This document shows positions 16,152-37,114 of a stretch of DNA of 64,000 nucleotides, in pieces. The number at the start of each line of letters is the position of its first letter. Within the stretch, counting starts at the first letter, position 1. The stretch is from Comamonadaceae bacterium OTU4NAUVB1 (GTDB taxonomy: Bacteria; Pseudomonadota; Gammaproteobacteria; Burkholderiales; Burkholderiaceae_C), in the NCBI GenBank assembly GCA_024372625.1, contig CP099603.1:62001-126000 (forward strand), written 5' to 3'. The position numbers and the translations under genes are program-made. The notes beneath the pieces are model-generated. The model saw nothing but the letters and a program-made list of their open reading frames with translations, had not been told where the DNA came from and ran no database searches.

Positions 16152-16184
16152 CCGATAGCAGTCATGATCTGTGATTTATCAACA
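16152..16184 (+). repeat. Direct repeat copy R1 (left edge of island)
   Basis: The right arm TGTGATTTATCAACA (16170-16184) is identical to that of copy R3. The left arm is degenerate (only GATA is kept). This is the leftmost of four copies in the same orientation. It lies just inside the truncated LLM gene and just before the toxin-antitoxin pair. Confidence 0.6.
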
Positions 16185-16280
16185 AGAAATAGAGCTAACG
16201 ATGCGCACAGCTTCCAGCGAGTTCCGACGGGTTTTGAAAGAAAACAGGGGAAATCGGGCCCTGGATGACTGCCGACCCTT

Positions 16281-16295
16281 GAGGCAATCTGCCTC
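16281..16295. promoter_or_regulatory. Palindrome upstream of the toxin-antitoxin operon
   Basis: GAGGCA-ATC-TGCCTC is a perfect 6-3-6 palindrome 48 bases before the antitoxin start. Type II antitoxins usually bind such a site to autoregulate their operon. No direct evidence beyond symmetry and position. Confidence 0.45.
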
Positions 16296-16342
16296 TGCTC
16301 CTGCAAATTGCGCTCGACCCTGTTTCTCTGGACAATGACGCT

Positions 16343-16573
16343 ATGGACCACAGGCCTCTGGTTACCGCTTCTGCCTCTGCGCCGGACATCGATGATGCCC
16401 AGGGCAATGCTGCGAAGCGCCCTGAGCCGGCGCGACGCATCCGTCGTCAAGGTCCGCCGTCCGAACGCCACCTGTCCTTGGCCCGCAACCTCCAGCGAGA
16501 TGTTTGGAAAGTGGCCGATGCCGACGACCGGGCACGCCGCATCGAGGACACCTACGGTCTCCAGAAGAAGTGA
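16343..16573 (+). CDS. Putative antitoxin of a YafO-type toxin-antitoxin pair
   Basis: A 76-aa, strongly charged protein (many Arg, Asp, Glu) with a helical C-terminal half around SLARNLQRDVWKVADADDRA. I do not recognise its family; it is not YafN-like by eye. The call rests on context: its stop TGA (16571-16573) overlaps the GTG start of the toxin (16570-16572) in the classic GTGA arrangement, and a perfect palindrome lies upstream. The start codon has no strong ribosome binding site, so a different start is possible. Confidence 0.55.
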   Translation: MDHRPLVTASASAPDIDDAQGNAAKRPEPARRIRRQGPPSERHLSLARNLQRDVWKVADADDRARRIEDTYGLQKK

Positions 16574-17097
16574 GTCCGCCACGACCCGCTGCGGCGGCGG
16601 CGGCGCTGAGCGTGCATTTCGATCCTGATCTTGCGAAAAAGATTGGGTCGCTAGAAGTTCTTCAGGAAATCGCTTCGCTGATCCGGGAGTGGAAGGTCAT
16701 CGATGATCGCGGCCAGATCGCAACGCAAGACCACTGGTTTTTTGGCAGGGACAAGCCCAACAATCCCGTGCGGGGTAACGCGGTCAGCTTTGCCTTCCAC
16801 GTCCACTTGCGACCGTTCAACCCTGCGGCTTGCGCCGCGTGGGACCAGCAAGCCGATGATGAGCGTCTGACCCCATACGAACGCACGAGCGACCGACTGG
16901 CGGTCTATTCGCTCAAGCACGCCGAGCCCTCCGCAGGACTGCTGTTGCTGGACATCGTGGGCGATCCGGGCGGTCATGCGATCTTCAACCGGGAAGATCC
17001 CGTCTATGCGCGGCTGCTCAGAGCCTGGGACCGGATCGCCGACCGCCATCAGGGGGTCGGGTTGAGCGCGCTGCCCATCGACGTCCTCACCCTGTAG
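16570..17097 (+). CDS. YafO-family type II toxin (probable ribosome-dependent mRNA interferase)
   Basis: A 175-aa protein starting with GTG at 16570. The order of motifs follows E. coli YafO: WFFGRD (residues 57-61), FHVHL (76-80), a charged segment, LAVYSLKH (110-117), LLLLDIV and PGGHAIF (133-139). YafO cleaves mRNA on the ribosome and halts growth. This protein is longer than YafO (132 aa) because of an N-terminal extension with an Ala run; an internal GTG at 16612 could give a shorter form. Translation is coupled to the upstream 76-aa gene. Function is inferred from motif order only. Confidence 0.65.
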   Translation: MSPPRPAAAAAALSVHFDPDLAKKIGSLEVLQEIASLIREWKVIDDRGQIATQDHWFFGRDKPNNPVRGNAVSFAFHVHLRPFNPAACAAWDQQADDERLTPYERTSDRLAVYSLKHAEPSAGLLLLDIVGDPGGHAIFNREDPVYARLLRAWDRIADRHQGVGLSALPIDVLTL

Positions 17098-17150
17098 CGA
17101 AAATTTCGCGCCCGCGAAAATCCGAACCTTGCTTGCCCATTCACTTGCTT

Positions 17151-17180
17151 TTATTCAATCGTTCAACAACAATTGAATAA
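17151..17180. promoter_or_regulatory. ArsR operator overlapping the arsR start codon
   Basis: TTATTCAA (17151-17158) and TTGAATAA (17173-17180) are perfect inverted 8-mers 14 bases apart. The last A is the A of the arsR ATG. ATTCAA/TTGAAT arms are typical of ArsR operators. A TTGCTT (17145) and AACAAT (17168) pair spaced by 17 bases could be the promoter, which would leave almost no leader. Confidence 0.65.
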
Positions 17181-17506
17181 TGAATGAAGAAGTCGTTGTG
17201 AAGTCGCTTGCTGCGCTGGCCCAGACCAGCCGCTTGCGCGTGTTCCGCGCCCTGGTGGTGGCCGGCCAAGAAGGACTGACGCCCGGCGCGCTTGGTGAAG
17301 CCCTGGACCTGCCCGCGACCAGCTTGTCGTTCCACTTGAAGGAACTGACCAATGCCGGGTTGACGTCGCAGGAGCGCCAAGGCCGGCACTTGGTCTACCG
17401 GGCGTCGTTCGACCAGATGAATGCACTGCTCGGTTACCTCACCGAGAACTGCTGCCAAGGCGAGGCCTGCGCGGTGAGCGGCACGACCCTGGCCTGTGAC
17501 TGCTGA
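17180..17506 (+). CDS. arsR: Arsenic-responsive repressor ArsR
   Basis: A 108-aa winged-helix repressor. The DNA-binding helix region LPATSLSFHLKELTNAGL is near residue 48. The metalloid site is at the C terminus (NCCQGEAC), the CC-x4-5-C arrangement of the Acidithiobacillus ferrooxidans ArsR class rather than the CVC motif of plasmid R773 ArsR; a further CDC ends the protein. It heads arsRBCH. The ATG overlaps the operator and has no Shine-Dalgarno sequence, so the mRNA may be nearly leaderless. Confidence 0.92.
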   Translation: MNEEVVVKSLAALAQTSRLRVFRALVVAGQEGLTPGALGEALDLPATSLSFHLKELTNAGLTSQERQGRHLVYRASFDQMNALLGYLTENCCQGEACAVSGTTLACDC

Positions 17507-17551
17507 CGCTGCTTTGCGTTGCCCGTCCATTCCTCCCACCACGACAACTCC

Positions 17552-18838
<1,287 letters not shown>

Positions 18839-18870
18839 ACGAGGTCCGACTTCACAACGCTGGAACCGAC

Positions 18871-19302
18871 ATGAGCGACATCACGATCTATCACAACCCC
18901 GACTGCGGGACCTCGCGCAACGTGCTCGCGCTGATCCGCAACACCGGCGAGGAACCTGCCGTCGTCGAATACCTGAAGACGCCACCCGACCGCGCAACGC
19001 TGAATCAACTCATCGCGGACATGGGCGTGCCCGTGCGGGAGGTGCTGCGTCAGAAGGGCACGCCCTATGACGAGCTCGGCCTGAGCGATCCAAGGTGGAG
19101 CGACGAGCAGCTGATCGACTTCATGCTGCAGCATCCCATCCTCATGAACCGGCCGATCGTGGTGACCCCCATCGGCACCCGACTGTGCCGGCCCTCCGAA
19201 GCGGTGCTCGACCTCTTGCCAACGCTGCAGCGAGGCCCGTTCGCCAAGGAAGACGGTGAGGCCGTGATCGATGAGAAAGGCCAGCGTGTTGCCAAGCCCT
19301 GA
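18871..19302 (+). CDS. arsC: Glutaredoxin-dependent arsenate reductase ArsC
   Basis: A 143-aa thioredoxin-fold reductase. The catalytic Cys is in [11 protein letters not shown] (Cys12) and the arsenate-binding Arg residues are in the expected places (RPIVVTP near residue 94). This is the R773/E. coli class using glutathione and glutaredoxin. It converts arsenate to arsenite for export by ArsB. The 3' end overlaps arsH by 32 bases. Confidence 0.95.
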
Positions 19303-20005
19303 CCTGCCAAACCTCGATGCGGACCAGTTCCACCTGCCCGATCCTCAACGCCTGTTTCCCCCGCGACGGGCAGACCACCCGCCGCGCATCCTGCTGCTCT
19401 ACGGATCGTTGCGCGAGCGCAGCTACAGCCGGCTGCTGACGGAGGAAGCGGCCCGCTTGCTGCAGGCCCTGGGGTGCGAGACGCGCATCTACGATCCTCG
19501 AGACCTGCCGCTGCCTGACGCGGCGCCTGAGAACCACCCGAAGGTGCAGGAGCTGCGCGACCTCGCGCAGTGGGCCGAGGGCATGGTGTGGACATCCCCG
19601 GAGCGCCACGGCGCGATGACGGGAGTCCTCAAGGCGCAGATCGACTGGATTCCCCTGGCGATCGGCTCGGTGCGACCCACGCAAGGCAAGACGCTGGCGG
19701 TGATGGAGGTCTCAGGCGGCTCGCAGTCCTTCAACGCCGTCAACCAGATGCGCGTGCTCGGGCGCTGGATGCGCATGATCACGATCCCCAACCAGTCGTC
19801 CGTGGCCAAGGCATTCCTGGAGTTCGAGGAGGACGGGCGCATGAAGCCATCGCCGTACTACGAGCGGGTGGTGGACGTGATGGAGGAGTTGGTGAAATTC
19901 ACGCTGCTCACGCGCGACTGCGCGGATTACCTGGTGGACCGCTACAGCGAGCGGCGGGAAAGCGCAGAAGCCCTGTCAAAGCGCGTCAACCTGCGCTCCC
20001 TCTGA
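19271..20005 (+). CDS. arsH: ArsH, NADPH-dependent FMN reductase / organoarsenical oxidase
   Basis: A 244-aa flavodoxin-like protein with the FMN-binding loop [13 protein letters not shown] (residues 42-54), the [18 protein letters not shown] segment and [12 protein letters not shown], all typical of ArsH. ArsH oxidises trivalent organoarsenicals and can act as an azo or quinone reductase. It overlaps arsC by 32 bases and ends the ars operon. No clear terminator follows. Confidence 0.94.
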
Positions 20006-20074
20006 GAGCGGTAGAGCAGGTCCGCGTGCGGTGGCTGGCGCAGGTCACAACGGCGGCGCAGCGAGCCCGGCGAA

Positions 20075-20539
20075 TCAGGCGCGGCCCGACTTCAACCCAG
20101 TGCCGCGCGCACGGCGCGGCGTGTGCTGATCTGCAATCCGGTCTTCGTCAGCCAAGGTCTCCACGATCGGACAATCGGGTCGATCGTCACCGTGGCAGTG
20201 GTTCACCAGATGCGCCAGTGTGGCCTTCATGGCGCTGAGTTCCTGCAGCTTGGCGTCGAGCTCCTGCAAGTGCGCCTGTGCCAGCGCCTTGACCTGCCGG
20301 CTCGGACGACGCTTGTCCTGCCACAGCCCGAGCAATTCGCGGATCTGATCGATCGAAAACCCGAGGTCGCGCGACTGGCGAATGAACCGCAGGGTGCTCA
20401 CTTCCCGGTCCGTGTACTGGCGATAACCCGCCTCGGTGCGCAAGGCTTCGGGAAACAGCCCAACCTTCTCGTAGTGACGGATCATCTTGGCCGAGACTCC
20501 AGAGGCCTTGGCCGTCTCGCCGATATTCAACAGTGTCAT
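20075..20539 (-). CDS. cueR: CueR, Cu(I)-responsive MerR-family activator
   Basis: A 154-aa MerR regulator with N-terminal winged helix (NIGETAKASGVSAKMIRHYEK). The metal-binding loop has Cys115 and Cys123 eight residues apart in HCHGDDRPDCPI, matching Cys112/Cys120 of E. coli CueR, and so predicts Cu(I)/Ag(I)/Au(I) sensing. The gene lies 11 bases downstream of copA on the same strand. It probably acts on the two 19-bp-spacer promoters at 23081-23111 and 23162-23192. Confidence 0.92.
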   Translation of the reverse strand: MTLLNIGETAKASGVSAKMIRHYEKVGLFPEALRTEAGYRQYTDREVSTLRFIRQSRDLGFSIDQIRELLGLWQDKRRPSRQVKALAQAHLQELDAKLQELSAMKATLAHLVNHCHGDDRPDCPIVETLADEDRIADQHTPRRARGTGLKSGRA

Positions 20540-20550
20540 GGGTCTGAGCC

Positions 20551-23052
20551 TCAAGCCTTGCGGGCGGGGTGGGTGGAAGACAGGATGGGCGACGCAAACA
20601 ATGCTTCTTGCTGCTGCAGCGAACGCCAGCGCCGCAGCAGCAAGGCGTTGCCGACCACGCTCACGCTGCTGAAGGCCATGGCCGCGCCGGCGATCATTGG
20701 ACTGAGCAGGCCTAGGGCTGCCAATGGAATGCCCAGCGCGTTGTAGCCGAACGCCCACCACAGGTTCTGCTTGATCTTGGCGTAGGTGCGGCGCGAGACG
20801 TCGATGGCGTCCGCGACGAGCCGTGGGTCCCCACGCATCAGGGTGATGCCAGCGGTCTCCATCGCCACGTCCGTGCCGGTCGCCATGGCGATGCCCACGT
20901 CGGCGGCGGCAAGAGCGGGTGCATCGTTGATGCCATCGCCCACCATCGCCACCACCTGGCCGGCCGCGCGCAACTCCTGCACGATGGCTGCCTTGTCGCC
21001 GGGCAGCACTTCGGCGCGTACTTCGGTGATGCCGAGGTCCTGAGCCACCGCGCGCGCACTGCCTTGGTTGTCCCCGGTGAGCATGACGGTGCGGATGCCC
21101 AACGCTTGCAGCCGGGCGACGGCTTGGCGGGCGGCGGGCTTGACCGTGTCGCCGAACGCCAAAAGGCCCAGCAGATCGACCTGCTGCCCGGTGGTGCGGG
21201 TGAGCCAAGAGATCGTCCGGCCTTCATCTTCCAGACGGGTCGCTTTCTGGGCCAGCGCACCAGTAGGCACACCCAACTCCTGCAGTAGACGGCTGCTGCC
21301 TAGCGACAGAACGCTGCCCTCCACGGTGGCCGTCAATCCACGACCCGGCAGGGCCTTGGCTTGAGAAGCCGCAGGCAAGGTCAGTTTCTCTTCGCGCGCC
21401 TGGTCCAGCACAGCACGTGCCAAGGGATGCTCGCTGACGCTTTGCAGGGCGCCTGCAAGTCGCAGGACGTCTGCGCGGTCCTCGCCCGGCGCCGGCACGA
21501 CCGCGGCCAGCGACGGCCGTCCTTCGGTCAGCGTGCCCGTCTTGTCAAAAGCCACTGTGGTGACCGAGTGCGCCACTTCCAGCGCCTGGGCGTCCTTGAT
21601 CAGGATGCCTTGGCGCGCGGCCACGCCGGTGCCGGCCATGATGGCCGTGGGGGTCGCCAGTCCCAGCGCGCATGGGCAAGCGATGACGAGCACCGCCACC
21701 GCGTTGATCAGCGCTTGCTCCCAGTTTCCCGTGACGGCGACCCACCCAACGAAGGTCAGTGCGGCGATCGCTAACACCACCGGCACGAACACCGCGCTCA
21801 CCCGGTCCACGATGCGCTGGATCGGCGCCTTGGCCGCCTGCGCCGACTCGACCATGCGGATGATGCGCGCGAGCATCGTCTCCGTGCCCACCGCCAGCGT
21901 CCTGACGGTCATCACGCCTTCGACGTTGATGGCGCCGCCCGTCACCTTCGCACCCACGGCCTTGGCCACCGGCAGACTTTCTCCGGTGATGAGCGATTCA
22001 TCAACATGGCTGTGACCCTCGCTCACCTCGCCGTCTACAGCGATCCGCTCGCCTGGGCGAACAACGACCAGATCACCCACGCGCACCTGATCGATGGCGA
22101 CTTCCACTTCGATGCCGTCACGGCGCACCCGGGCGGTCGCCGGACGCAGTGCGTTAAGGGCATGAATGGCGGCAGCGGTCTGGCGCTTGGCGCGACCTTC
22201 TAGCCATTTGCCCAGCAGCACGAGCGTGATGACCGTTGCCGAGGCTTCGAAGTACAGATGGGCCATGCCGTGCGTGCCATGACGCCACAGCAGGTAGACC
22301 GACAGCCCATAGGCCGCCGAGGTGCCCAGGGCCACCAGCAGGTCCATGTTGCCCGCGCCGGCGCGCACGGCTTTGTAGCCGGCCCGGTAGAAGCGCCAGC
22401 CCAGCCAGAACTGCACCGGCGTGGCCAGGGCCCACTGGGCCCAGCCACCCAGCATCCAGTCGATCCCCAGCACCTGCAGCAGCATCGGTGCGATGAGCGG
22501 CGCGGTCAGCACCGCCGCCACCGCCACCGGCCACCAAGCGGGCCACTGCCAGCCGGGCGCCACCGAGACGGATGCCGACGAAGGTGCCATCTCCCGAGCC
22601 TTCACGGCGTAGCCACCTTTCTCAATGGCCGCTTCTAGGGCCTGCACCGGCACGGTCGAGAGCATTTCGACGGTGGCTTTCTCAGTCGCAAGGTTGACCG
22701 AGGCGCTCGTGACCCCAGGAACTTTCAGGAGCGCCTTTTCCACGCGGGACACGCATGAGGCGCATGTCATGCCTTCCACACCCAGTTCCACTTGCTGTGT
22801 GCCCACCTCGTAGCCAGCCTTGCGCACGGCCGCCACCAACGCCTGGGCACCCACGCCGGGCTCGACCGCCACGGCCGCCTGCTCGGTTGCCAGGTTCACT
22901 TCGGCTCGCTGAACCCCCGGCAGCGTTTTCAGGGCTTTTTCCACCCGCATGACGCAGGAGGCGCACGTCATCCCAGCGATGGGGAGCTGCAGGGCCTGCA
23001 GGCCTGGGGAAGCGGCAGCGGTGGCGCCTAGGGGGTGGACAGCGGTGGTCAT
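20551..23052 (-). CDS. copA: Cu(I)-exporting P-type ATPase CopA
   Basis: An 833-aa P1B-type ATPase. Two N-terminal metal-binding domains (each GMTCASC) are followed by membrane helices with the transport motif [10 protein letters not shown], the TGES actuator loop, phosphorylation motif DKTGTLTEG and hinge [10 protein letters not shown]. It exports cytoplasmic Cu(I). Start choice: the ATG at 23052 gives MTTAVHPLG; an ATG two codons upstream (23058) is also possible. A frame open still further upstream would run through the CueR-type promoter and is rejected. cueR follows directly. Confidence 0.94.
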
Positions 23053-23080
23053 GGGCATCAAGGAAATATCGAGACCTTGG

Positions 23081-23111
23081 AGTCTGAAGCTTCCCACAGT
23101 GGCAAGCTCAA
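23081..23111 (-). promoter_or_regulatory. CueR-type promoter of copA
   Basis: On the minus strand, -35 TTGAGC and -10 CAGACT are separated by 19 bp, the elongated spacer that MerR-family activators twist. The spacer and flanks hold the dyad AGCTTGCC-ACTGT-GGGAAGCT (23088-23108), close to known CueR boxes. It lies about 30 bases before the copA start. Confidence 0.75.
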
Positions 23112-23161
23112 GGGGGAAGTGGAGAGTGCGCAACGCCGAGATGGTTATCCGTCAAGGGCAC

Positions 23162-23192
23162 TTGACCTTCCAACAGTGACAAGGATGACACT
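23162..23192 (+). promoter_or_regulatory. CueR-type promoter of copZ
   Basis: -35 TTGACC and -10 GACACT are separated by 19 bp, with the dyad CCTT...AAGG (23166-23184) in the spacer. This mirrors the divergent copA promoter 50 bp away, so one CueR protein should switch on both. Confidence 0.72.
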
Positions 23193-23228
23193 GACTGCGT
23201 CCAACCACTTTTGAGCCAGGAGAACCCC

Positions 23229-23477
23229 GTGATCGCCTTTGACATTCAAGACATGACCTGCGGCCATTGCGTTGCCACCATCACCCGGGCCGTGGCAGCG
23301 GTTGATGCGGGCGCTGCCGTGCGCTTCGATCTGCCGGCGCACCGCGTGGAAATCACGTCCGGCACCGCCAGTGCCGACGTCCTGAGCCAGAGCATTCGGG
23401 ACGCCGGCTACACCCCGGTGGCGGCCAGTGCGACCCCGGCGGCAGCGCCCAAGAAGGGTGGCTGCTGCTGCGGCTGA
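23229..23477 (+). CDS. copZ: CopZ-like cytoplasmic copper chaperone with Cys-rich tail
   Basis: An 82-aa heavy-metal-associated domain. The Cu(I) site is MTCGHC (residues 9-14), and a Cys-rich end (GGCCCG) is unusual for CopZ. The start is the GTG at 23229, with AGGAG five bases ahead; an upstream in-frame TTG at 23211 is less likely. It is divergent from copA and has its own CueR-type promoter. It should hand Cu(I) to CopA. Confidence 0.88.
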   Translation: MIAFDIQDMTCGHCVATITRAVAAVDAGAAVRFDLPAHRVEITSGTASADVLSQSIRDAGYTPVAASATPAAAPKKGGCCCG

Positions 23478-23535
23478 GCGCCTGCGGGCTCCGCGCGGTA
23501 CCGCACCGACAGGCCCTTGCAAAGCCTTGAAAAAC

Positions 23536-23570
23536 AAAAAGGCCGGCATTCACCATGCCGGCCTTTTCTT
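23536..23570. terminator. Bidirectional Rho-independent terminator
   Basis: AAGGCCGGCAT-TCACC-ATGCCGGCCTT is an 11-bp perfect stem with A-rich left and T-rich right flanks. It separates copZ (plus) from the convergent periplasmic copper cluster (minus). Confidence 0.88.
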
Positions 23571-23609
23571 TGGGTCAGCCCGCCTCAAAGGCGGGCCGCC
23601 TTGCGCGAT

Positions 23610-23726
23610 TTACTCGCAGCAGGGCATCGTGACCTCGTCGCAGCAGTCTTCACCGCAGCAGGGTGCGGCAGCGAACGCAGCGGTCGAGGCGAGGGCAAAG
23701 GCAAAAATAGCCAGAAGTTTTTTCAT
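23610..23726 (-). CDS. 38-aa secreted Cys-rich peptide, putative periplasmic copper binder
   Basis: A very small gene at the end of the copper cluster. It starts ATG with AAGGA five bases ahead. Residues 1-19 are a perfect Sec signal peptide (MKKLLAIFAFALASTAAFA); the mature peptide of about 19 residues has three CC pairs (PCCGEDCCDEV, then PCC) and acidic residues. Six thiols in 19 residues strongly suggest metal binding in the periplasm. I know no named family. It lies 58 bases after the CusF-like gene and is followed by a strong terminator. Confidence 0.75.
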   Translation of the reverse strand: MKKLLAIFAFALASTAAFAAAPCCGEDCCDEVTMPCCE

Positions 23727-23784
23727 GGAAGTCCTTGAGGGTTGAAGTAAAAAAAACGCACGCAATAAAGTGAGCCAGTGTGGC

Positions 23785-24156
23785 TCAGCGCAAAGACTCG
23801 ATGGCGGTCACAACGAACTTGCCATCGATTTTCTCTGCCTGGAACTGCACTTTCTCACCTGGTTGCACCTTGTCGAGGACCGTGTCGTCCTTGACGCCGA
23901 ACACCATCGTCATGCCCGGCATGTCCAAGCTCTTGAGCGGGCCGTGTTTGATGGTGATCTTTTTGTTGTCCCTGTCCACTTTGCGGACCTCGCCTTTGGT
24001 CATCTCGGCGCTGCCGGCGGCTTGAGCCTGAACAGCGCCGGCTGGCGCAGCGCTCTCTGCGGGCGCGGGCGACGGCTCGGGCGTCTGGGCATGGGCCGAG
24101 CCGATCAAGGCGAAACCCACTGCAAGGGTGGCGAGGGTGATACGGAGATTGAGCAT
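23785..24156 (-). CDS. CusF-like periplasmic copper-binding protein
   Basis: A 123-aa protein with signal peptide (residues 1-23, SAHA cleavage), a Pro/Ala-rich linker, and a C-terminal small beta-barrel like CusF: GEVRKVDRDNKKITIKHGPLKSLDMPGMTMVF. The Cu(I) ligands of CusF (one His, two Met, one Trp) map to H, M and M here (IKHGP, MPGMTM); the Trp is replaced by Phe. It probably carries Cu(I) to an efflux route or to the oxidase. Confidence 0.85.
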   Translation of the reverse strand: MLNLRITLATLAVGFALIGSAHAQTPEPSPAPAESAAPAGAVQAQAAGSAEMTKGEVRKVDRDNKKITIKHGPLKSLDMPGMTMVFGVKDDTVLDKVQPGEKVQFQAEKIDGKFVVTAIESLR

Positions 24157-28780: not shown

Positions 28781-28812
28781 GTTGCCACGACTTTTAACCC
28801 AAGGAGATCCCT

Positions 28813-29253
28813 ATGAAACTCACTTTCAACGCTCGCCTAACCCAGCGTTCTAGCAATTTTCTGCTGAAGGCGGTCTGTGCGTTCAGCTTGCTTGGCACGC
28901 TGGCGGCGCCGCTGGCCGTGCAGGCTCAGCCTGCGAAGGCAGAAGCTCCCATGGCCGGTCACGCCATGCCCGCGGGGGGCATGAACCACGGCGGTGACAT
29001 GAAGGCGATGATGAAAGGCATGAACGACAAGATGGCTGGCATGACCATGACGGGCAATCACGATGTGGACTTTGCCCAGATGATGCGCATTCACCATCAA
29101 GGCGCCATCGACATGGCGGAGATGGAACTGAAAAATGGCGAGGACGCTTCGATGCGGAAAATGGCGCAAGAGGTCATCAAAACGCAGAAAAAGGAAATAG
29201 CTACCATCGATCGTTTTTTGACTAAAAATGGCTCGCCTGCCAAGGGTTCTTAA
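28813..29253 (+). CDS. DUF305 (CopM-like) exported copper-binding protein, copy 1
   Basis: A 146-aa exported protein. A signal peptide ends near VQAQ; a Met/His-rich part follows (MAGHAMPAGGMNHGGDMKAMMKGM), then the DUF305 core with MMRIHHQGAIDMAEMEL. In cyanobacterial CopM such Met/His clusters bind copper in the periplasm. AAGGAG lies ahead of the ATG. It is divergent from the cop cluster and ends before the terminator at 29380. A second DUF305 gene lies at 32756-33178. Confidence 0.85.
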   Translation: MKLTFNARLTQRSSNFLLKAVCAFSLLGTLAAPLAVQAQPAKAEAPMAGHAMPAGGMNHGGDMKAMMKGMNDKMAGMTMTGNHDVDFAQMMRIHHQGAIDMAEMELKNGEDASMRKMAQEVIKTQKKEIATIDRFLTKNGSPAKGS

Positions 29254-29379
29254 ACCAGATTAAAAAAGCGAACATAGATCGCCGTGGATTTAAAAATAAA
29301 TAAAGTGCTGAAATCAAATTCGATGCTGCATTGAAAATGCCAGCATGCAGATATTTGATCATGGTAAAATGCACGCTGA

Positions 29380-29404
29380 AGCCGACGCCTGACGTCGGCT
29401 TTTT
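29380..29404 (+). terminator. Rho-independent terminator after DUF305 copy 1
   Basis: AGCCGACG-CCTGA-CGTCGGCT is a perfect 8-bp stem followed by TTTT. It lies 126 bases after the DUF305 stop and just before repeat R2. Confidence 0.85.
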
Positions 29405-29415
29405 ACATTTGGCTT

Positions 29416-29448
29416 GATGATAAATCAGCCAATTGTGGTTAATCAACA
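29416..29448 (+). repeat. Direct repeat copy R2
   Basis: The left arm contains GATAAATC (29419-29426), the spacer is AGCCAATTGT, and the right side reads TGTGGTTAATCAACA (29434-29448), two mismatches from R1. It lies between two convergent gene ends, so it is unlikely to be an operator. Confidence 0.65.
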
Positions 29449-29532
29449 GATCTGATGTCTGACTGATTGCTTGCTGGCGCTTGTAGAGCACTGGGTCACA
29501 TCGTCCAACGCCCTAATGCGGGCTGTTGGCTT

Positions 29533-30522
29533 CTATGCTTCGTGTGCTACTTCTAGAGCGTTTTGCCGATCGATGCAAAAAAGCTTTCGATAGGCAGAGG
29601 GCGAAGTCTGGAGATGGCTGGCGAACAGCTGGCGCAGCGAGAGGGCGGTGCCGAACCCGACTTCGGTGGCCACGCGCTCGATCGGGAAGTCGGTGGTTTC
29701 CAGCAACTGCTGCGCCCGCGCGATGCGCTCCGCAGCCAGCCACTTGACCACGGTGGTGCCCGTCGCCTCGCGAAAACGTCGCGTGAAGGTGCGTCGGCTC
29801 ATCCGCGCGACGTCAGCCAGGGTGTCCAGCGACAGCGGTTCAGACAAGTGGCTGCGTGCCCATTCCAGCACGCCGGGCAAGCGGTTTTCGCTCGGCAGCG
29901 CAGGCACCGGCTGCTCGATGTACTGGGCCTGGCCGCCCTGGCGATGAGGCGGTGTCACCAGCATCCGCGCGACGCGGTTGGCGACGTCGGCGCCGTGGCG
30001 CTGACGCACGAGGTTCAGGCAGCAATCGATCGCCGCAACCGTCCCGGCCGATGTGATGACGTTGCCATCGTCCACGTAGAGCACATCGCGAAGAAAGTCG
30101 GTCCGCGGAAAGCGCGTGGCGAAGAGTTCGCGACAAGCCCAGTGGGTGGTCGCTCGGCGCCCGTCGAGCAAGCCGGCATCGCCCAGCACGAAAGCGCCCA
30201 GGCACAGACCGACCACCTGCGCGCCGCGCGCATGGGCCTTTCGCAAGGCCTCGCTCAGCACTGCGGGCGCAGCGTTCTCAGGATGGTCCCAGGCCGGAAC
30301 GATGACGACGTCGGCATCGACCATGGCATCCAGGCCGCTGGGCACCTCGATCTCCATGCCCTGGTCACAGCGCACACGACCGGGCGTCGGTGCGCAGTAG
30401 CGCACTTCGTACGGCGGGAAGCCCGCGGGTGCCGGCGTCACTCCGAACACCATGCTGGGCACCGAGAGGTGAAACAGGCTGACGCCCTCGAAGGCAAGCA
30501 CGGCGACGCGGACGGGTGGCAT
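29533..30522 (-). CDS. GlxA-family AraC-type transcriptional regulator
   Basis: A 329-aa regulator. The N-terminal half is a DJ-1/PfpI-like amidase fold (VAVLAFEGVSLFHL, then GLCLGAFVLGDAGLLDGRRATTHW); the C-terminal half has two AraC helix-turn-helix motifs (LADVARMSRRTFTRRFREATG, then IERVATEVGFGTALSLRQLF). The ATG at 30522 is preferred to an upstream one at 30558, since it starts MPPVRVAVL as in the family. Targets are unknown; the divergent UlaG-like gene is the nearest candidate. Confidence 0.87.
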   Translation of the reverse strand: MPPVRVAVLAFEGVSLFHLSVPSMVFGVTPAPAGFPPYEVRYCAPTPGRVRCDQGMEIEVPSGLDAMVDADVVIVPAWDHPENAAPAVLSEALRKAHARGAQVVGLCLGAFVLGDAGLLDGRRATTHWACRELFATRFPRTDFLRDVLYVDDGNVITSAGTVAAIDCCLNLVRQRHGADVANRVARMLVTPPHRQGGQAQYIEQPVPALPSENRLPGVLEWARSHLSEPLSLDTLADVARMSRRTFTRRFREATGTTVVKWLAAERIARAQQLLETTDFPIERVATEVGFGTALSLRQLFASHLQTSPSAYRKLFCIDRQNALEVAHEA

Positions 30523-30683
30523 GGCAGCTCCAGGGACAAGACTGAACGAATGGCCCAATCCTAGCGATCAAAGTCATCCGGGCCAATGGTGCAAAGCGTC
30601 TTCGATCCGCAAACTGGACCCACCGCACGAACACCAGTTCATCGTGCACAACCAGCAAACCAACGATCGGTAAGGAAATCCCC

Positions 30684-31595
30684 ATGAAAGTCTTGAATGT
30701 TCTGCGTGTCACCGCCGCACTTGGCAGCATCGGCATGATCGTCGCCTGCGGCACGGCCTACTCCAGCAACAGCGCTTCAAGCGTTCCCGCTCCCACAGCG
30801 GCAACCGTCGTGCAGCTCCAGCAGATTCGCAATGCGACCGTCAAGATCGATTTCGCAGGCACCACGTTCCTGGTCGATCCGATGCTCTCAGCCAAGGGTG
30901 CATTCCCAGGTTTCCCCAACACCTACCGCAGCGAACTGCGCAATCCCCTGGTGGATCTGCCTTTCACGGCCGATCAAGTGCTCGAGAGCGTCGAAGCCGT
31001 CGTGGTGACCCACACCCACACTGACCACTGGGACGAAGCCGCACAGAAGCGCATTCCCAAAGACATGCCCATCTTTGTGCAGAACGACCTGGACGCCAAA
31101 ACGATCCGTGGTCAGGGCTTCAAGGACGTGCGTGTGCTTCAAGACACCACCACGTTCAATGGCGTGAAGCTGAGCAAGACCGGTGGCCAGCATGGCACCG
31201 ACCTGTGGTTTGCGGATCCCGTACGTTCAGAGGGCATGGGCCCGGTCATGGGCGTCGTGTTCTCGGCGCCCAAGGCCAAGACGGTCTATGTGGCCGGTGA
31301 CACCGTCTGGCGTCCAGAGGTGGACCAGGCCCTGACGACTCACAAGCCGGACGTCATCGTCCTGAACACCGGCAGTGCCCTCATGAGCGGCTTCGAGGAG
31401 CACCCGATCATCATGGGCAAGCAGGACGCCCTCCAAGCTGCCAAGGCAGCGCCCAAGGCGGCCATCGTGGCGGTGCACATGGATTCGGTGAATCACATGT
31501 CGCTCAGCCGCAAAGAACTGCGCGCTTTTTTGCAGGAGCAAAAGATTCAGGATCGCGTGGCCATTCCTGCGGATGGCGAGACGATGCGGTTCTGA
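30684..31595 (+). CDS. MBL-fold metal-dependent hydrolase, lipoprotein, UlaG-like
   Basis: A 303-aa protein. The signal peptide ends in a lipobox (MIVAC, Cys21), so it is probably anchored in the envelope. The metal site is intact: THTHTDHWDE (HxHxDH), GGQHG, AGDTVW and VHMDSVNH, the order seen in UlaG-type beta-lactamase-fold hydrolases. The substrate is unknown. An AAGGAAA sequence precedes the ATG. It is followed by the isochorismatase-like gene after 59 bases. Confidence 0.85.
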   Translation: MKVLNVLRVTAALGSIGMIVACGTAYSSNSASSVPAPTAATVVQLQQIRNATVKIDFAGTTFLVDPMLSAKGAFPGFPNTYRSELRNPLVDLPFTADQVLESVEAVVVTHTHTDHWDEAAQKRIPKDMPIFVQNDLDAKTIRGQGFKDVRVLQDTTTFNGVKLSKTGGQHGTDLWFADPVRSEGMGPVMGVVFSAPKAKTVYVAGDTVWRPEVDQALTTHKPDVIVLNTGSALMSGFEEHPIIMGKQDALQAAKAAPKAAIVAVHMDSVNHMSLSRKELRAFLQEQKIQDRVAIPADGETMRF

Positions 31596-31654
31596 GCCCT
31601 GCTGTATCGACCGCGATGCCAAGCTGTTCCGTCCACCTACAGAAAGACCAAGCA

Positions 31655-32143
31655 ATGAAACAAGCACTCGTCGTCATCGACATCCAGAATGAATACTTTC
31701 CTGGCGGAGGATTCGTGCTGGAAGGTGCCAAAGAAGCCTGTCGAGGCGCCATCGAAGCGATCGAGCATGCAAAACGCGAGGGATGGCTGGTCGTCAGCGT
31801 GCAGCACGTCAATGCGCCGGATGCGCCTGCTTTCAAGCCTGATACGAAAGGCGTGAAAACGCATGCCAGCGTTGCCGCCGCGCTTGGGGACGTTCCCGTC
31901 GTCGTGCAAAGGGAAGCCGACAGCTTCTTCGAGACCGATCTGGAAAAGATCGTGCGTGACGCCGGCATCACGGACCTCTACCTCACGGGCATGCTGACGC
32001 AGCACTGCGTCACCCATACCGCACTGTCCCCGCAAGCACGCGACATGAACGTTCACATCATTGCCAAAGGCTGCGCTGCGCCTGCCAAAGCATTGAGTGA
32101 CTTGGCCTTGCAGGGTCTGAGCGCTCGGTGTCGAATAGCATAA
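31655..32143 (+). CDS. Isochorismatase-like cysteine hydrolase, C-terminally shortened
   Basis: A 162-aa protein of the isochorismatase/nicotinamidase fold: ALVVIDIQNEYF (catalytic Asp), a Lys/Arg region at VVQREADSFFET, and the Cys loop LTGMLTQHCVTHTA. Family members usually continue 15-25 residues beyond the final SDLALQGLSARC segment, while this one stops after CRIA in a sudden change to AT-rich sequence. The shortening occurs about 130 bases before repeat R3, which suggests a recombination event. It may still be active. Confidence 0.78.
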   Translation: MKQALVVIDIQNEYFPGGGFVLEGAKEACRGAIEAIEHAKREGWLVVSVQHVNAPDAPAFKPDTKGVKTHASVAAALGDVPVVVQREADSFFETDLEKIVRDAGITDLYLTGMLTQHCVTHTALSPQARDMNVHIIAKGCAAPAKALSDLALQGLSARCRIA

Positions 32144-32622
32144 AATAACTTCTGCTCTACATCTATTTGGTTTTGACAAAATCGATGTTGGATTTTCAGA
32201 ATACTATTAAGCGTTGAAAATTTAAAGTAGGGAAAAAGGTTGATATTTTTATGCCGGCCTTTTTCGTTTTCTTTAATGCTAAATCGGCGAAATGTGATTT
32301 ATCAACATCCCTTTCATCATTACGCGCCGTTCTAGAAAACCGCATGCAGCTTGAAACAATGAGCCTCGTGCCTGTGACCTCATCGAGCTCAAGGTTCTCC
32401 ACTCGGTGTGGTCGTTGCACCTGCGATCAGCATTCAAACTGCGCCGCTGTCGATTGGCCATGGCCGACCTTGCCTGACCACGTACACCTCAGCCATCTTC
32501 AGAGAGCGCATCCAAGTCCTCGGCGTTTGCGGCCGTGCGGTGCACTTTTCATCTGGAGGTGAAGTGAGCAGCGCCTTTGCGGTCACTGAAACCACCACGC
32601 GCTCATGAGTTGAACGTGGACC
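32144..32622. other. Gene-free, low-GC stretch around repeat R3
   Basis: No convincing gene. It holds a half-terminator (ATGCCGGCCTTTTT at 32251-32264, matching the right half of the complete terminator at 23555) and repeat R3. A short open frame near 32390-32475 does not match any family I know. Confidence 0.5.
32275..32307 (+). repeat. Direct repeat copy R3
   Basis: The left arm is reduced to GCTAAATC, the spacer is GGCGAAATG, and the right side TGTGATTTATCAACA (32293-32307) is identical to R1. Same orientation as the other copies. Confidence 0.65.
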
Positions 32623-32655
32623 TGGAATAAACGGACCACCTCATCCGTCCATCCA
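32623..32655 (+). promoter_or_regulatory. ECF-sigma-type promoter of the DUF305/beta-propeller operon
   Basis: TGGAATAAAC, 13 bases, then CGTCCATCCA. The same two blocks with identical spacing precede the ECF sigma operon on the opposite strand (36719-36751). GGAATA-like -35 and CGTCC -10 elements fit ECF sigma factor promoters. Confidence 0.72.
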
Positions 32656-32755
32656 TGCAGACAACCGAAAGTAACCCTTGAGCCTTTGTCCTCCTGCACT
32701 CACGCTGCCCACCGTTCGTTGGCAAGCAGGTTGCTGTCGCACGCTCGTGCAGCGC

Positions 32756-33178
32756 ATGGTCGAACGAAGCTCCACAGGAGGCTGCTTCCTTCGCGCGGCC
32801 ACCATTGGGTTGCTGGTTTCAGGAAGCGCATTGACGCAGGCCGCCGATATGCACGTCCATGGCATGCCTGCCAACGGCGCGGCACCTCCAAGCTTCGTGG
32901 CCAGCACAGCCAAGCCCTTCGATGCGTTAATGGGTGATGCCATGGCCGTCATGGATCACGGCATGCGCAACGCGCCCATGAACGGTCAGCCTGCGCACGA
33001 CTTCATGACCATGATGATTCCCCATCACCGGGGTGCCATCGACATGGCCAAATCGATCCTGCTCAACACCCAGGATCCCGAAGTGCGCAATCTTGCGCAG
33101 GGAATCATCACCGAGCAGGCCAACGAAATCCGGGTGATGCAGGCTTGGCTCGCGCGTCAAACAACGCCTACCAAGTAA
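32756..33178 (+). CDS. DUF305 exported protein, copy 2
   Basis: A 140-aa protein with a signal peptide (FLRAATIGLLVSGSALTQA) and DUF305 core HDFMTMMIPHHRGAIDMAKSILL. The Met/His-rich N-terminal part is shorter than in copy 1. The start is the ATG at 32756; a TTG at 32678 in the same frame would add 26 residues without a plausible signal peptide. It lies 100 bases downstream of an ECF-type promoter and 54 bases before the beta-propeller gene. Confidence 0.82.
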   Translation: MVERSSTGGCFLRAATIGLLVSGSALTQAADMHVHGMPANGAAPPSFVASTAKPFDALMGDAMAVMDHGMRNAPMNGQPAHDFMTMMIPHHRGAIDMAKSILLNTQDPEVRNLAQGIITEQANEIRVMQAWLARQTTPTK

Positions 33179-33232
33179 CCGCACTGCGGTCTCTAACCCT
33201 GGTGTGTGAGCACGCCGAAAAAGGTTTCCTTC

Positions 33233-34627
33233 ATGAATTTTCTCAAGCCTCTCGTCATCGCCGCAGTGCTTGCTGCCGCATCTTTTGCTGCATCGTCAGC
33301 CTCCAAGCCTGGCGATCGCGTGTACACCGCGGACCAGAACACCAACACGGTGTCGGTGGTTGACCCCAACACCAACACCTTGCTTGGCCAAATCAGGCTC
33401 GGTAACCAGCGTCCCGACGTGCTGTCGCCGCTGTACAAGGGTGAGATCAACGTGCATGGCCTCGGCTTTTCGCCTGATCACCGTACGCTGGTCGCCATTG
33501 CCAACGGCTCAAATTCGGTGACTTTCATCGACACGGCGACCAACCAGGTCAAGGGCGTGACCTATGTTGGTCGTTCGCCGCATGAGGCTTTTTTCACGCG
33601 CGACGGCAAGGAAGTCTGGGCAGTGGTGCGCGGAGAGAATTACATCTCTGTCATCGACGCCAAGACCTTCAGGGAGCAGCGCCGGATCGAAACTGCACCT
33701 GGTCCTGGCATGGTGCTGTTCACGCCCGACGGCAAGCGCGCGCTTGTGGTCTCGAGCTTCACACCCGAAGTGGCTGTGGTCGACACCCGCTCGTACAAAA
33801 TCATCAAACGCATACCCGTCATCAGCCCGTTCTCACCGTTCCTGCAGTTCACCCCGGATGGCAAAGAGGTCTGGATGGGCCACAAGGACGTCGGCAAGGT
33901 CACGCGCATCGACGTGAAATCGATGGCGGTGACCAGTGTCGTCGACACCGGCTTCATCACCAACCATCTCGGATTCGCCAAAACGGCACGCGGCACGCTG
34001 GCGTACGTCGCGGTGGGTGGAGAAAATGTCGTGAAGGTCTACTCGACCGATGGCGAAGCAAGGCTGTTGAACACCATCATGACTGGCGCGCTGCCGCATG
34101 GCGTCTGGGCATCGGACGACAGTGAACGCATGTATGTCGGCCTGGAAAACGGCGATGCGGTCCAGGTGATCGACACCGCCAGCGATAAAGTCGTTGCGAC
34201 TGTACCCGTCGGCCAGGCACCTCAAGCGCTGGTCTATGTGTCGAATGCCGTACCGTCCGGTGCCGGTATGGACAACTTGAAGCCGCTGGCGAATGCGGCC
34301 CCTGTCAACATCCCACTCCTGCCGACGTCCGGTGACGCCAAGGGCTTCGTGGTGGCACGTAACTTCGGCGTGGTCGATGCGCTGGAAGTGTTTCTCTACA
34401 AGCTAAAGCCTGAGACGGTCTACAGCATCTTTGCAGGCGATCAGAAAGTGCCCGTTGCCAGCTTCAAGACCAATTTGGCGGGGATGGCCAACGGCACGGC
34501 GATCGGGGAAATCCGCGAGGTCAAGCGTCTGCAGTCGGAAGCCAATTCGACTCCCCCAGCCCTCGTGGTCATCGAAGGCAACGGACCATTGGAAGCAGCC
34601 AAGGTCGTTCTACGTAACCCGATGTGA
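33233..34627 (+). CDS. YncE-like exported beta-propeller protein
   Basis: A 464-aa protein with signal peptide (residues 1-25) and about seven YVTN-type repeats such as VYTADQNTNTVSVVDPNTN, VTFIDTATNQVKG and VQVIDTASDKVVATVPVG. The C-terminal ~110 residues form an extra domain without repeats. Such proteins sit in the periplasm and often serve as binding or scaffold proteins; the ligand is unknown. It follows DUF305 copy 2 in the same operon and ends at a terminator whose stem overlaps the stop codon. Confidence 0.83.
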   Translation: MNFLKPLVIAAVLAAASFAASSASKPGDRVYTADQNTNTVSVVDPNTNTLLGQIRLGNQRPDVLSPLYKGEINVHGLGFSPDHRTLVAIANGSNSVTFIDTATNQVKGVTYVGRSPHEAFFTRDGKEVWAVVRGENYISVIDAKTFREQRRIETAPGPGMVLFTPDGKRALVVSSFTPEVAVVDTRSYKIIKRIPVISPFSPFLQFTPDGKEVWMGHKDVGKVTRIDVKSMAVTSVVDTGFITNHLGFAKTARGTLAYVAVGGENVVKVYSTDGEARLLNTIMTGALPHGVWASDDSERMYVGLENGDAVQVIDTASDKVVATVPVGQAPQALVYVSNAVPSGAGMDNLKPLANAAPVNIPLLPTSGDAKGFVVARNFGVVDALEVFLYKLKPETVYSIFAGDQKVPVASFKTNLAGMANGTAIGEIREVKRLQSEANSTPPALVVIEGNGPLEAAKVVLRNPM

Positions 34628-34648
34628 TCCAGGGTCCGTGGATCTTTT
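34626..34648 (+). terminator. Rho-independent terminator after the beta-propeller gene
   Basis: GATCCA-GGGTCCG-TGGATC then TTTT. The stem begins inside the stop codon (TGA 34625-34627). Confidence 0.6.
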
Positions 34649-34909
34649 GCTGTGTCGTGCGGCGACGTTGCTGCGCGAAGCGGATATAGATCAATCCGCT
34701 TGGTCCAGTCCTTGACGATGCAGGATCCTCCTTGGAAGCTGTACTGCCAGATCGCACTGGTATTAGGACGGCCCTCGAGGCGGCTAGCGAATACAGTTTT
34801 GCGGCCTGGCTGCAAAACGTCGCATGAATCGTGACGTCAGTTCGATGCTTTAATTGAGCTATTGTTTTGGTATTTCATAGGCCGCATCCTCGCCAGCAAC
34901 ACTTACAGG

Positions 34910-35746
34910 CTATCTACGCCCTTCGAGCTGGCTGTAGACCGCTTCGGCGACCCGCAGCATTTCAGATTTGCTGTCGCCCGACGAGATGGCGTAGCCGAAA
35001 TCCTTGTCGACCCAGTAGAAGACATTGACTGGGCCGTCCTGGCCGAACTTGAAGGCCGTCTCGCGTCCGGCATCCTCGCGAGTGACGTACAGCGTCAGAC
35101 GTTCACCCTTCGCGCCTTCGAACATGAACTGCGCCACCGGCCCCTTGTCGCCCGGCAGCAGCCGCCCGCCGATGAGCTCGTAGCCCAGGGCGCGCAGGTC
35201 GGGCGGCTTTACTTCGGTGCCCATGCGCTTGGTCAGCCAGGTGACGAGCGCCTGCTCCTGGTCGGCGCCGACCTCGACCGGACGACGCACGTCCGGGCTG
35301 TAGACCACGTGTGCCACGGCCGCGCGGTGGGCAAAACCATTGAGCGTGCCCGCCCGCGCCGCGGCCAGCGTGGCACTGCGCTGCAGTTGCCCGTCGTAGG
35401 CGCCACGGCCCCACCAGGCCGACCCGGTGCTGACGACCGCGATCGCCACGCCGGCTGCCAGGGAGCGCCACGGCCATTCCTGCCAGCCCGCCCCCGGCGC
35501 CGGCTTCAGCGGCAGGCGCAGTGGCAAGGGCTCGGACAGGACCGGATCGAGGAACTGCTTGAGCGCCAGGTTTTGGGCACGCCAATCGTCTACGCGCTCG
35601 CGTTCGGTCGGATGCGCATCCAGGAATGCATCGATTTCGACATGCCGGGTCGGGTCCAGAAGGTGGTCCGCGTAAGCATGCAGATCGGCTTCGGTCACCG
35701 GCTTGATGCCGTCGGTGGAAATGGGTTTGAGTGGGGGAGAGTCCAT
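34910..35746 (-). CDS. Anti-sigma factor, membrane-bound
   Basis: A 278-aa protein. The N terminus resembles the ASD-type anti-sigma domain (VTEADLHAYADHLLDPTRHVEIDAFL), followed by one membrane helix near residues 92-113 (WRSLAAGVAIAVVSTGSAWWG) and a periplasmic part. It starts one base after the sigma gene stop, the usual arrangement of an ECF sigma/anti-sigma pair. No zinc-binding HxxxCxxC motif is seen. Confidence 0.85.
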   Translation of the reverse strand: MDSPPLKPISTDGIKPVTEADLHAYADHLLDPTRHVEIDAFLDAHPTERERVDDWRAQNLALKQFLDPVLSEPLPLRLPLKPAPGAGWQEWPWRSLAAGVAIAVVSTGSAWWGRGAYDGQLQRSATLAAARAGTLNGFAHRAAVAHVVYSPDVRRPVEVGADQEQALVTWLTKRMGTEVKPPDLRALGYELIGGRLLPGDKGPVAQFMFEGAKGERLTLYVTREDAGRETAFKFGQDGPVNVFYWVDKDFGYAISSGDSKSEMLRVAEAVYSQLEGRR

Positions 35747-35747
35747 G

Positions 35748-36272
35748 TCACTTGATCCTGCGCAGGGGTGCGACCGCTTGGGCTGACGGCGCGCGGCCTT
35801 GCAGTTCCTGCCGCAGCTTGTCGCGGCCGCGCGCCAGCCGGGACATCACCGTGCCGATGGGCACGCCGAGCGCGGTGGCGGCTTCTGCGTAGCTCATTTC
35901 CTCGACCGCGATGAGCAGCAGCACCTCGCGTTGCTCCACGGGCAGCCGCTGCAGGACGCGGTCCAGGTCGCGGACTTCGATGCCGTCGGACTGGCTGGCG
36001 CGCTGCGGGATTTCGGGCAGGTCGTCACCCGCGCTGTCCTCGGGTCGGCTGCCCCTGGCGCGTACGCCGTCGATGAAATGGTTGTGCATGATGCCGAACA
36101 TCCAGGCCCGGACGTCTCCGCGTTTCTGCCAGAGCGAGAACCGGCTCCACGCCCGCTCCAACGTGTCCTGCACCAGGTCGTCGGCGCGCGTGGCGTCCGA
36201 CACCAGCCCGCGCGCGTAACGGCGCAGGCCGGGAATGCAAGCGACGATCGCGGCTTCGTCCTGTGCGCGCAT
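35748..36272 (-). CDS. ECF-type RNA polymerase sigma factor
   Basis: A 174-aa sigma factor with region 2 (DDLVQDTLERAWSRFSLWQ, then MFGIMHNHFID) and region 4 (LQRLPVEQREVLLLIAVEEMSYAEAATALGVPIGTVMSRLARGRDKLR). The ATG at 36272 fits the family; the frame open upstream overlaps the lipoprotein gene and is rejected. The gene is flanked by its anti-sigma gene and by a small exported protein. It probably recognises the promoter motif at 36719-36751 (its own operon) and at 32623-32655. Confidence 0.9.
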   Translation of the reverse strand: MRAQDEAAIVACIPGLRRYARGLVSDATRADDLVQDTLERAWSRFSLWQKRGDVRAWMFGIMHNHFIDGVRARGSRPEDSAGDDLPEIPQRASQSDGIEVRDLDRVLQRLPVEQREVLLLIAVEEMSYAEAATALGVPIGTVMSRLARGRDKLRQELQGRAPSAQAVAPLRRIK

Positions 36273-36307
36273 GGGCTGGAAGTTCGTCCTCGTGCCGACC
36301 AGCCTGA

Positions 36308-36685
36308 TCAGGGCTTGATGACGTGCCAGACGTTCTTGAAGTTGTCGCCGGTCATGTCGCCGGCCTTCATGTCGGACTTGTAGAGGTAGACCGGCTTGCC
36401 CTTGTAGGCCCACTGCTTGGTCCCGTCGTCTCGCGTGACAAGGGTCATGTCGCCTTCGGGCTTCGCGTCCGCTTCTGCCATCACCGGCGGCCACAGTCCG
36501 GCGCACGGGCCGTTGCAGGCGCTTTTGCCGCTGCCGGCGGTGTCGTTGTCGAAGGTGTAGAGCGTCATGCCGCTGGTGTTGACCAGCATGCCGCCGGCCG
36601 TCTTCACTGGGGCGGCAGCCTGGGCGAGGCCAGCCGACGCGGCGGCGATGGCGAGAACGAGAGTCGAGACGAGGTGCTTGTTCAT
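36308..36685 (-). CDS. Exported protein with COG4315-type repeats
   Basis: A 125-aa protein with a signal peptide (AQAAA) and two copies of the short motif typical of this family: GMLVNTSGMTLYTFDNDTAG with SACNGPCAGLWPP, and KQWAYKGKPVYLYKSDMKAGD. These proteins commonly accompany ECF sigma operons; function unknown. It is first in the operon with sigma and anti-sigma genes (35-base gap), behind an ECF-type promoter with an AAGGGA ribosome binding site. Confidence 0.85.
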   Translation of the reverse strand: MNKHLVSTLVLAIAAASAGLAQAAAPVKTAGGMLVNTSGMTLYTFDNDTAGSGKSACNGPCAGLWPPVMAEADAKPEGDMTLVTRDDGTKQWAYKGKPVYLYKSDMKAGDMTGDNFKNVWHVIKP

Positions 36686-36718
36686 GGAAGTCCCTTGAAG
36701 GAAAAGTGGAGAAGACAC

Positions 36719-36751
36719 TGGATGGACGCGCGACGCTGGCTGTTTATTCCA
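36719..36751 (-). promoter_or_regulatory. ECF-sigma-type promoter of the lipoprotein/sigma/anti-sigma operon
   Basis: On the minus strand: TGGAATAAAC, 13 bases, CGTCCATCCA, identical blocks and spacing to the promoter at 32623-32655. It lies 34 bases before the first gene's ATG, so the sigma factor would control its own operon. Confidence 0.75.
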
Positions 36752-37114
36752 CTTGACTTCCCATTTTTTTGTTGAAATGAACAGCCTGAGAGGGTCGGTT
36801 CGCTCAAGACACTCGCCGTTGATAAATCGCCAAAATGTGGTTTATCAACAAAATGGTCTGTCATGGATGAGAACATGCATGTTGGTAAGACATGGCTGTG
36901 GTCATAGGCGCCATCGGTTGGGCGTAAGAGTGCTTCAGTCTCTGATCGACGATCCGCGCGAAAGTCTGCTGGTTTGAGGAGCAAGCCAGCCAGCAGTCGC
37001 CAAGCGATTGGCTGACGTCAGGTCGCGATGGTTCCACTGCTTCCTGGCGATGGAAGTTGCCCTGAGGCGGTTATTTCTCCAGTTTCAATCGCGTCTCACT
37101 TCTGAGACAACGAC
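36752..37114. other. Intergenic region at the right edge of the island
   Basis: No gene is seen. It holds repeat R4 and presumably the promoter of the mechanosensitive channel gene, which I cannot pinpoint. Confidence 0.5.
36818..36849 (+). repeat. Direct repeat copy R4 (right edge of island), best-conserved palindrome
   Basis: Arms GTTGATAAATC (36818-36828) and GGTTTATCAAC (36839-36849) pair in 10 of 11 positions around the spacer GCCAAAATGT. The right side TGTGGTTTATCAACA differs from R1 and R3 by one base. Beyond it, genes look like ordinary chromosome. Confidence 0.68.

Follow-up and report, generated by a model that had tools for sequence, protein, structure and literature searches.

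A family of oriented palindromic sites in the accessory DNA of two putative secondary replicons of Comamonadaceae bacterium OTU4NAUVB1

The window analysed here is a 64-kb stretch of DNA (C1:62001-126000) from Comamonadaceae bacterium OTU4NAUVB1, where C1 is contig CP099603.1, one of the five contigs (C1-C5) in which the genome has been assembled. Seven full sites and one half site of ~40 bases each, R1 to R4 in the window and S1 to S4 on contig C5, form one oriented family, which is tied to the accessory DNA of C1 and C5. The sites are tentatively interpreted, from comparisons of sequence, as polar, single-strand-type attachment sites of a putative site-specific recombinase for blocks of accessory genes.

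Sites in the window

The right part of the sites, TGTGRTTWATCAACA, has four matches in the window, at positions 16170, 29434, 32293, and 36836. All of them are exact, in a search that permitted up to two mismatches, and all are on the + strand. The mean chance expectation is 0.09 matches, and none of 100 shuffles reached four. A first-pass annotation of the window had listed four imperfect palindromes of ~32 bp in the same orientation. Their number, orientation, and first three coordinates agree with the present search; the fourth coordinate, given there as 36835, is corrected to 36836. The palindromic form holds for R2, R3, and R4, whereas R1 is a right half alone. The sites and the terminators ahead of them are located as follows (window positions):

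16150-16184, + strand: R1, half site, which fits the family solely by its right half TGTGATTTATCAACA (16170-16184) and has a leave-one-out score of -3.5
29380-29404, + strand: intrinsic terminator with a GC hairpin and T-run, 9 bases ahead of R2
29414-29448, + strand: R2, full site, the left part of which is foldable as a hairpin
32231-32265, + strand: terminator-like hairpin before R3, identified by eye and not called by the strict scan
32273-32307, + strand: R3, full site
36816-36850, + strand: R4, full site; its unbroken palindrome is the longest in the window sites

As the first-pass annotation had stated, R2 is positioned between convergent gene ends; this agrees with the gene calls of the present analysis, for which a simple caller was made.

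Distribution of the family among the replicons

The contig C3 is 3.29 Mb long and presumably starts with dnaA. Because each of the contigs C1, C2, C4, and C5 contains a ParB_N match (those of C2 and C5 below the cut-off) adjoined by rep-like and parA-like genes, the four are treated as putative secondary replicons. Their low-GC zones are near the contig ends, least clearly on C4. The Rep protein of C5 matches Rep_3. In the whole genome, the 15-mer has 10 matches with up to one mismatch, which are confined to C1, C4, and C5; allowing two mismatches gives 14 matches, three of which are on C3.

A weight matrix was run over C1, C2, C4, C5, and 15 stretches of C3. It recognizes R1 at C1:78150, the full sites R2, R3, and R4 at C1:91414, 94273, and 98816, and the full sites S1, S2, S3, and S4 at C5:2175, 21130, 70761, and 79115. 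All eight sites are on the + strand. Weaker matrix scores belong mostly to the reverse strands of known sites; those at C1:109280 and C2:276104 are weak and unexplained. The seven full sites have leave-one-out scores of 21.9-45.7, whereas none of 20 simulated zones exceeds 15.1. When palindrome families were sought without bias in C1, C2, C4, and C5, this family ranked first, as a group of five sites and one unrelated palindrome. A model built from the eight sites was applied to 27 sources and returned 12 matches at E <= 5. Eight of these are the input sites, two more are input sites matched on the opposite strand as well, and the last two are weak, one of them overlapping the C1 copy of the shorter sequence described below. 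The first-pass annotation had proposed a whole-genome search, naming an even spread of copies as evidence against the shuffling of gene modules. Instead, the sites belong to the accessory DNA of the two secondary replicons, and the search with up to one mismatch gave no match on C3.

A 24-bp shorter relative of the sites, B, has the sequence TGTTGATTA-TGTGAT-TTATCAACA. It occurs in one copy each, with one mismatch, on C1 (45272, + strand), C5 (415886, + strand), and C4 (157234, - strand), and C5 also has a B-like sequence with five mismatches, 80 bases ahead of its end. The copies of B on C1 and C5 share the + strand with all eight family sites, which are positioned on one side of B; for C5 this requires the contig to be circular, which is assumed.

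Organization of the sites

The right 15 bases of the sites are far better kept than the remainder and are conserved by sequence. The alignment of the eight sites contains two overlapping dyads. The full sites are imperfect 13-8-13 palindromes, and the left part alone is also capable of forming a hairpin, in which columns 1-10 pair with columns 16-24 with one bulged base. In this left hairpin, 11 cells are changed on both sides of the stem, compared with 5.0 in shuffles, none of 500 of which is as high; the comparison is based on eight related rows and a structure drawn post hoc from R2, S1, and S2. An unbiased ranking of 1,191 possible short stems places columns 3-6 with 19-22 first. This stem overlaps the drawn hairpin in a slightly different register and pairs the base that is a bulge there. 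The covariation of the 13-8-13 palindrome is not beyond that of shuffles (313 of 500 as high).

In B, ~11 bp separate the centers of the arms, and in the full sites ~21 bp, corresponding to one and two helical turns. B is readable as 9-6-9 inside 11-6-11 and the full sites as 13-8-13, compared with the 11-6-11 layout of the 28-bp dif. According to a strict scan, three of the eight sites (R2, S2, and S3) are at most 40 bases behind a + strand terminator, a position shared by 1% of intergenic bases (P = 5e-5). By eye, S1 and R3 also follow a terminator, which brings the total to five of eight. A search of the sites for Rfam-type RNA families returned nothing at E <= 0.5.

Gene blocks and their edges

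Three blocks are located between the sites in the window (window positions; the blocks have no assigned strand):

16185-29413: block R1-R2 (block X), with ars genes, copper genes, and a DUF305 gene; on C5 its paralog is found after S2
29449-32272: block R2-R3, with genes for a GlxA-type regulator, a metallo-hydrolase, and an isochorismatase
32308-36815: block R3-R4 (block Y), with genes for a CopM/DUF305 protein, a propeller, an anti-sigma candidate, an extracytoplasmic function (ECF) sigma factor, and a secreted-repeat protein

The proteins confirmed in the window are ArsB, ArsC, a heavy-metal P-type ATPase, a multicopper oxidase, DUF305 proteins, the GlxA-type regulator (DJ-1/PfpI and AraC helix-turn-helix domains), the metallo-hydrolase, the isochorismatase, a YncE-like propeller, and the ECF sigma factor. 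The ars, cop, GlxA, hydrolase, isochorismatase, DUF305/propeller, and ECF sigma contents that the first-pass annotation had assigned to the blocks are thus retained. Its toxin-antitoxin genes, which had also served in an analogy to dif/pdif modules, are not confirmed: four open reading frames at 15733-17097 have no Pfam match, two of them have no NCBIfam match either, and 17180-17506 encodes an ArsR/MarR-type helix-turn-helix protein.

Blocks X and Y have the same orientation on C1 and C5; however, their order is opposite. On C1, X is between R1 and R2, and Y between R3 and R4; on C5, the paralog of Y is between S1 and S2, and that of X comes after S2. Block Y of C1 is a decayed paralog of a longer block containing a whole yeiH gene, which is present on C5, in the plasmid pACP4.2 of A. 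carolinensis, and in another member of the genus (G233). In a nucleotide alignment, a decayed end of yeiH begins ~117 bases to the right of R3 on C1; the protein support for it is weak (E 0.018).

The gene before R2 and its paralog on C5 remain homologous across the terminator, as far as the left edge of R2, where the homology ends. The homology of the gene before S3 to its paralog on C1 stops, as determined by eye, ~21 bases before S3. A 13-kb stretch of C5 (2953-16162) is common to pACP4.2 (L050:12844-24773) with 98.9% identity, and its similarity is that of a recent transfer. The boundaries that had been proposed for the blocks are not supported: homologies end near the sites and mostly not at them. 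The sites are near apparent rearrangement points and are not proven junctions.

In A. carolinensis, the left end of the shared 13-kb stretch adjoins an operon of a 605-residue-long tyrosine recombinase. The genes crcB (C5:2439-2759, behind S1) and that of a DMT transporter (C5:21537-22562, behind S2) are ~18.8 kb apart and are neighbors in Ideonella (L203:11143-12772).

Possible functions of the sites

If the sites are attachment sites, blocks of accessory genes would be added, lost, or reordered at them by a putative recombinase. The hairpin of the left part would form in single-stranded DNA, in the manner of integron attC sites and HUH nuclease substrates, fixing the polarity of the site, and TGTGRTTWATCAACA would be the part bound by the protein and exchanged. 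B may represent an anchor, with blocks collecting on one side of it. The enzyme would be encoded in trans; the genome has nine Phage_integrase matches as candidates for it, two of them DUF3701 recombinases. This interpretation is suggested by the high leave-one-out scores, the first rank among palindrome families, the single orientation, the covariation of the left hairpin, the positions behind terminators, the opposite order of the blocks on C1 and C5, the stop of homology at R2, and the yeiH remnant to the right of R3. Active sites would enable metal-resistance and metabolic blocks of ~3-50 kb to be shuffled between replicons via a polar hairpin-type site. This would constitute a second natural route of modular gene capture, outside integrons and XerCD, and large plasmids could be screened for sites of this new kind.

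Several results weigh against attachment sites. Good folding of the left hairpin is limited to four of the eight sites (R2, S1, S2, and S3), RNAalifold favors the long palindrome over it, and the spacers vary from site to site. The spacing of one turn in B and two in the full sites also fits a plain binding protein. None of the nine Phage_integrase matches is inside the arrays or beside B, and the genome contains no serine resolvase match. Homology ends at distances of ~118 bases (R1), ~117 bases (R3), and ~54 bases (R4); for the 13-kb stretch in common with A. carolinensis, the ends are 743 bases away from S1 and 4,967 bases away from S2. Block Y also has internal deletions unrelated to the sites. 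There is no GC step at the sites (mean 0.032, compared with 0.036 at 87 other gaps; P = 0.62, over spans of 2 kb, the one size used). No empty site was found, and neither was a relative in which a block had been gained, lost, or swapped at a site; the relatives searched do not contain the sites themselves. The shuffling of modules at recombinase-like sites, as put forward in the first-pass annotation, is partly supported, by the oriented family in accessory DNA, the opposite block order, and the arms unlike those of the dif candidates; the homologies that mostly do not end at sites do not support it.

The main rival explanation, which is possible but somewhat more doubtful, is that the sites bind a dimeric protein, such as a nucleoid, silencing, or replicon-care factor, and are not recombined. 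The distances between arm centers would place both arms on the same face of the helix in B and in the full sites, and the long palindrome is kept without covariation, as expected of arms read in double-stranded DNA. Furthermore, B is near rep on C5 and adjoins parB on C4, and there is no recombinase gene near the sites. However, a symmetric site needs neither the same orientation at eight of eight positions nor the location of many of them behind terminators. Each secondary replicon also has its own duplicated parS-like repeat, and therefore B is not needed as a centromere. Even if they were binding sites only, they would mark an oriented, replicon-specific element that is invisible to gene annotation.

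It is rather unlikely that the sites are functionless relics of a small dispersed element settling 3' of genes, similar to a repetitive extragenic palindromic (REP) sequence or the single end of an HUH-type transposon. Such an origin agrees with the extragenic placement, the imperfect bulged hairpin, the divergence among copies, and the one Y1 transposase gene of the genome, which is on C3. By contrast, the better conservation of the right 15 bases points to selection, the copies are few and in a single orientation, and the 3.3-kb locus around the Y1 gene contains no site-like sequence.

An integron-like system is unlikely. In it, B would be the anchor, and multi-gene blocks, each ending in a terminator and a single-strand hairpin, would be stacked on one side with fixed polarity by a novel recombinase or HUH nuclease.

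It is improbable that the sites are relaxase targets resembling an origin of transfer (oriT), as in Pre/RSA systems, with B as the mobilization site of three replicons and the other sites derived from relaxase-made recombination. The sites resemble an oriT in layout, with a hairpin and then a conserved strand, and there is one B on each of three replicons. Relaxase-made fusions of plasmids at short shared sites are described in PMC5714925. However, the genome has no match to the PF03432 (MOBP) relaxase family, PF01076 not having been searched for. A motif scan found no relaxase either, and also missed the annotated relaxase of a control locus.

Searches outside the genome

Within the collections searched, which may omit this genome itself and its near relatives, the sites are confined to this genome. 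Relatives, GTDB species genomes, plasmids, phages, and viral contigs contain scattered matches, which are read as chance. A strict site pattern matched no stretch of the genome contigs collection, and a looser one matched 11, ten of them in DNA with a GC content of 0.26-0.47 and one at 0.52. Viral contigs gave eight stretches, all in DNA with a GC content of 0.35-0.41. None of the stretches in these two collections has the full left arm, as judged by eye, and they are taken as chance matches.

In a sample of the family, one of 199 other genomes has one match with two mismatches, and in the genus nine of 99 other members have one match each with three mismatches. B is absent from 100 other members of the genus, and B-like sequences in seven related rep loci agree at best in 13-15 of 24 bases, none of them similarly placed near the rep end. 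The search of plasmids with S1 returned five records, three of which span 80% or more of the query, with 83-88% identity and E values of 1-4. Two are Acinetobacter plasmids that each have a single match, in both cases upstream of the same gene, and one match is inside an Elizabethkingia gene; they are taken as chance and not as true sites. Plasmids also contain four partial matches to B and two to R2, and phages 16 partial matches to S1. No convincing palindrome family of comparable kind was found in loci of A. carolinensis, Ideonella, Variovorax, and the genus. The titles and abstract starts of the literature surveyed contain no description of the site, the letters of which were not searched for in papers.

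Candidate enzymes and comparison with known site types

The DUF3701 tyrosine recombinases are encoded at C5:316926-318836 and C2:285583-287352; according to PMC8138268, DUF3701 recombinases form the TnpR subgroup. None of the four recombinases scanned exceeds the cut-off of the integron integrase model, which the two DUF3701 proteins match far below it. The consensus boxes of integron sites are RYYYAAC/GTTRRRY. The sites share with integron attI/attC the single orientation, a simpler site (B) on one side, and positions behind gene ends, and may also share bulged hairpin-type sites. They differ from integrons in the lack of these boxes, of an integrase above the cut-off among the recombinases scanned or any beside B, and in the size of the blocks, which are 3-50 kb long where integron cassettes hold single genes.

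REP/RAYT elements and IS200/IS605 ends are oriented extragenic bulged hairpins, often 3' of genes, and the sites are similar to them in these respects. By contrast, the sites have eight copies only, a 15-base conserved flank, and none beside the Y1 gene; a REP element was rejected on adjacency to a cognate Y1 gene. Serine resolvase sites were rejected because the genome has no serine resolvase match.

The Pre/RSA relaxase sites resemble the family in being ~24 bp long, palindromic, common to plasmids, and adjoined by a hairpin. They belong, according to PMC5714925, to Gram-positive systems, whereas this genome has no PF03432 match.

Near par, each secondary contig has a distinct pair of near-perfect palindromes, which are probably parS:

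C5: 411510, 412187
C4: 158678, 535
C1: 458843, 459715
C2: 49427, 49722

A role of the family as the parS centromere was rejected, because each secondary contig has its own pair and B is common to C1, C4, and C5.

The dif modules of Acinetobacter (pdif, XerCD) are similar in that their sites are short, with a short spacer and one arm better kept than the other, and have accessory blocks between them. According to PMC13141974, they are on Rep_3-type plasmids, and the Rep of C5 is likewise of this type. The sites described here differ in their arms, 13-8-13 layout, single orientation, and much larger blocks. Moreover, dif modules are moved by the host XerCD, and the sites are unlike the dif candidates of this genome. 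These candidates, with TTATGTTAA arms, are at C3:1758312, C1:369539, and C5:219117; they were picked by eye from a loose scan, in comparison with PMC2731167, and were missed by a stricter pattern. XerCD dif/pdif was rejected because the site arm T(T/A)ATCAACA is unlike the TTATGTTAA arms, in agreement with the first-pass remark that the arm is not of the XerC/XerD type.

A tyrosine recombinase of 342-343 residues, paralogous by eye between C3 (1758859-1759887) and C5 (214964-215995), is encoded ~0.5 kb from the dif candidate on C3 and ~3 kb from that on C5, and may be an extra terminus recombinase. In the copper region of C5, the gene at 44601-45237 contains a 48-base tandem repeat encoding MQGMGQGG-like repeats.

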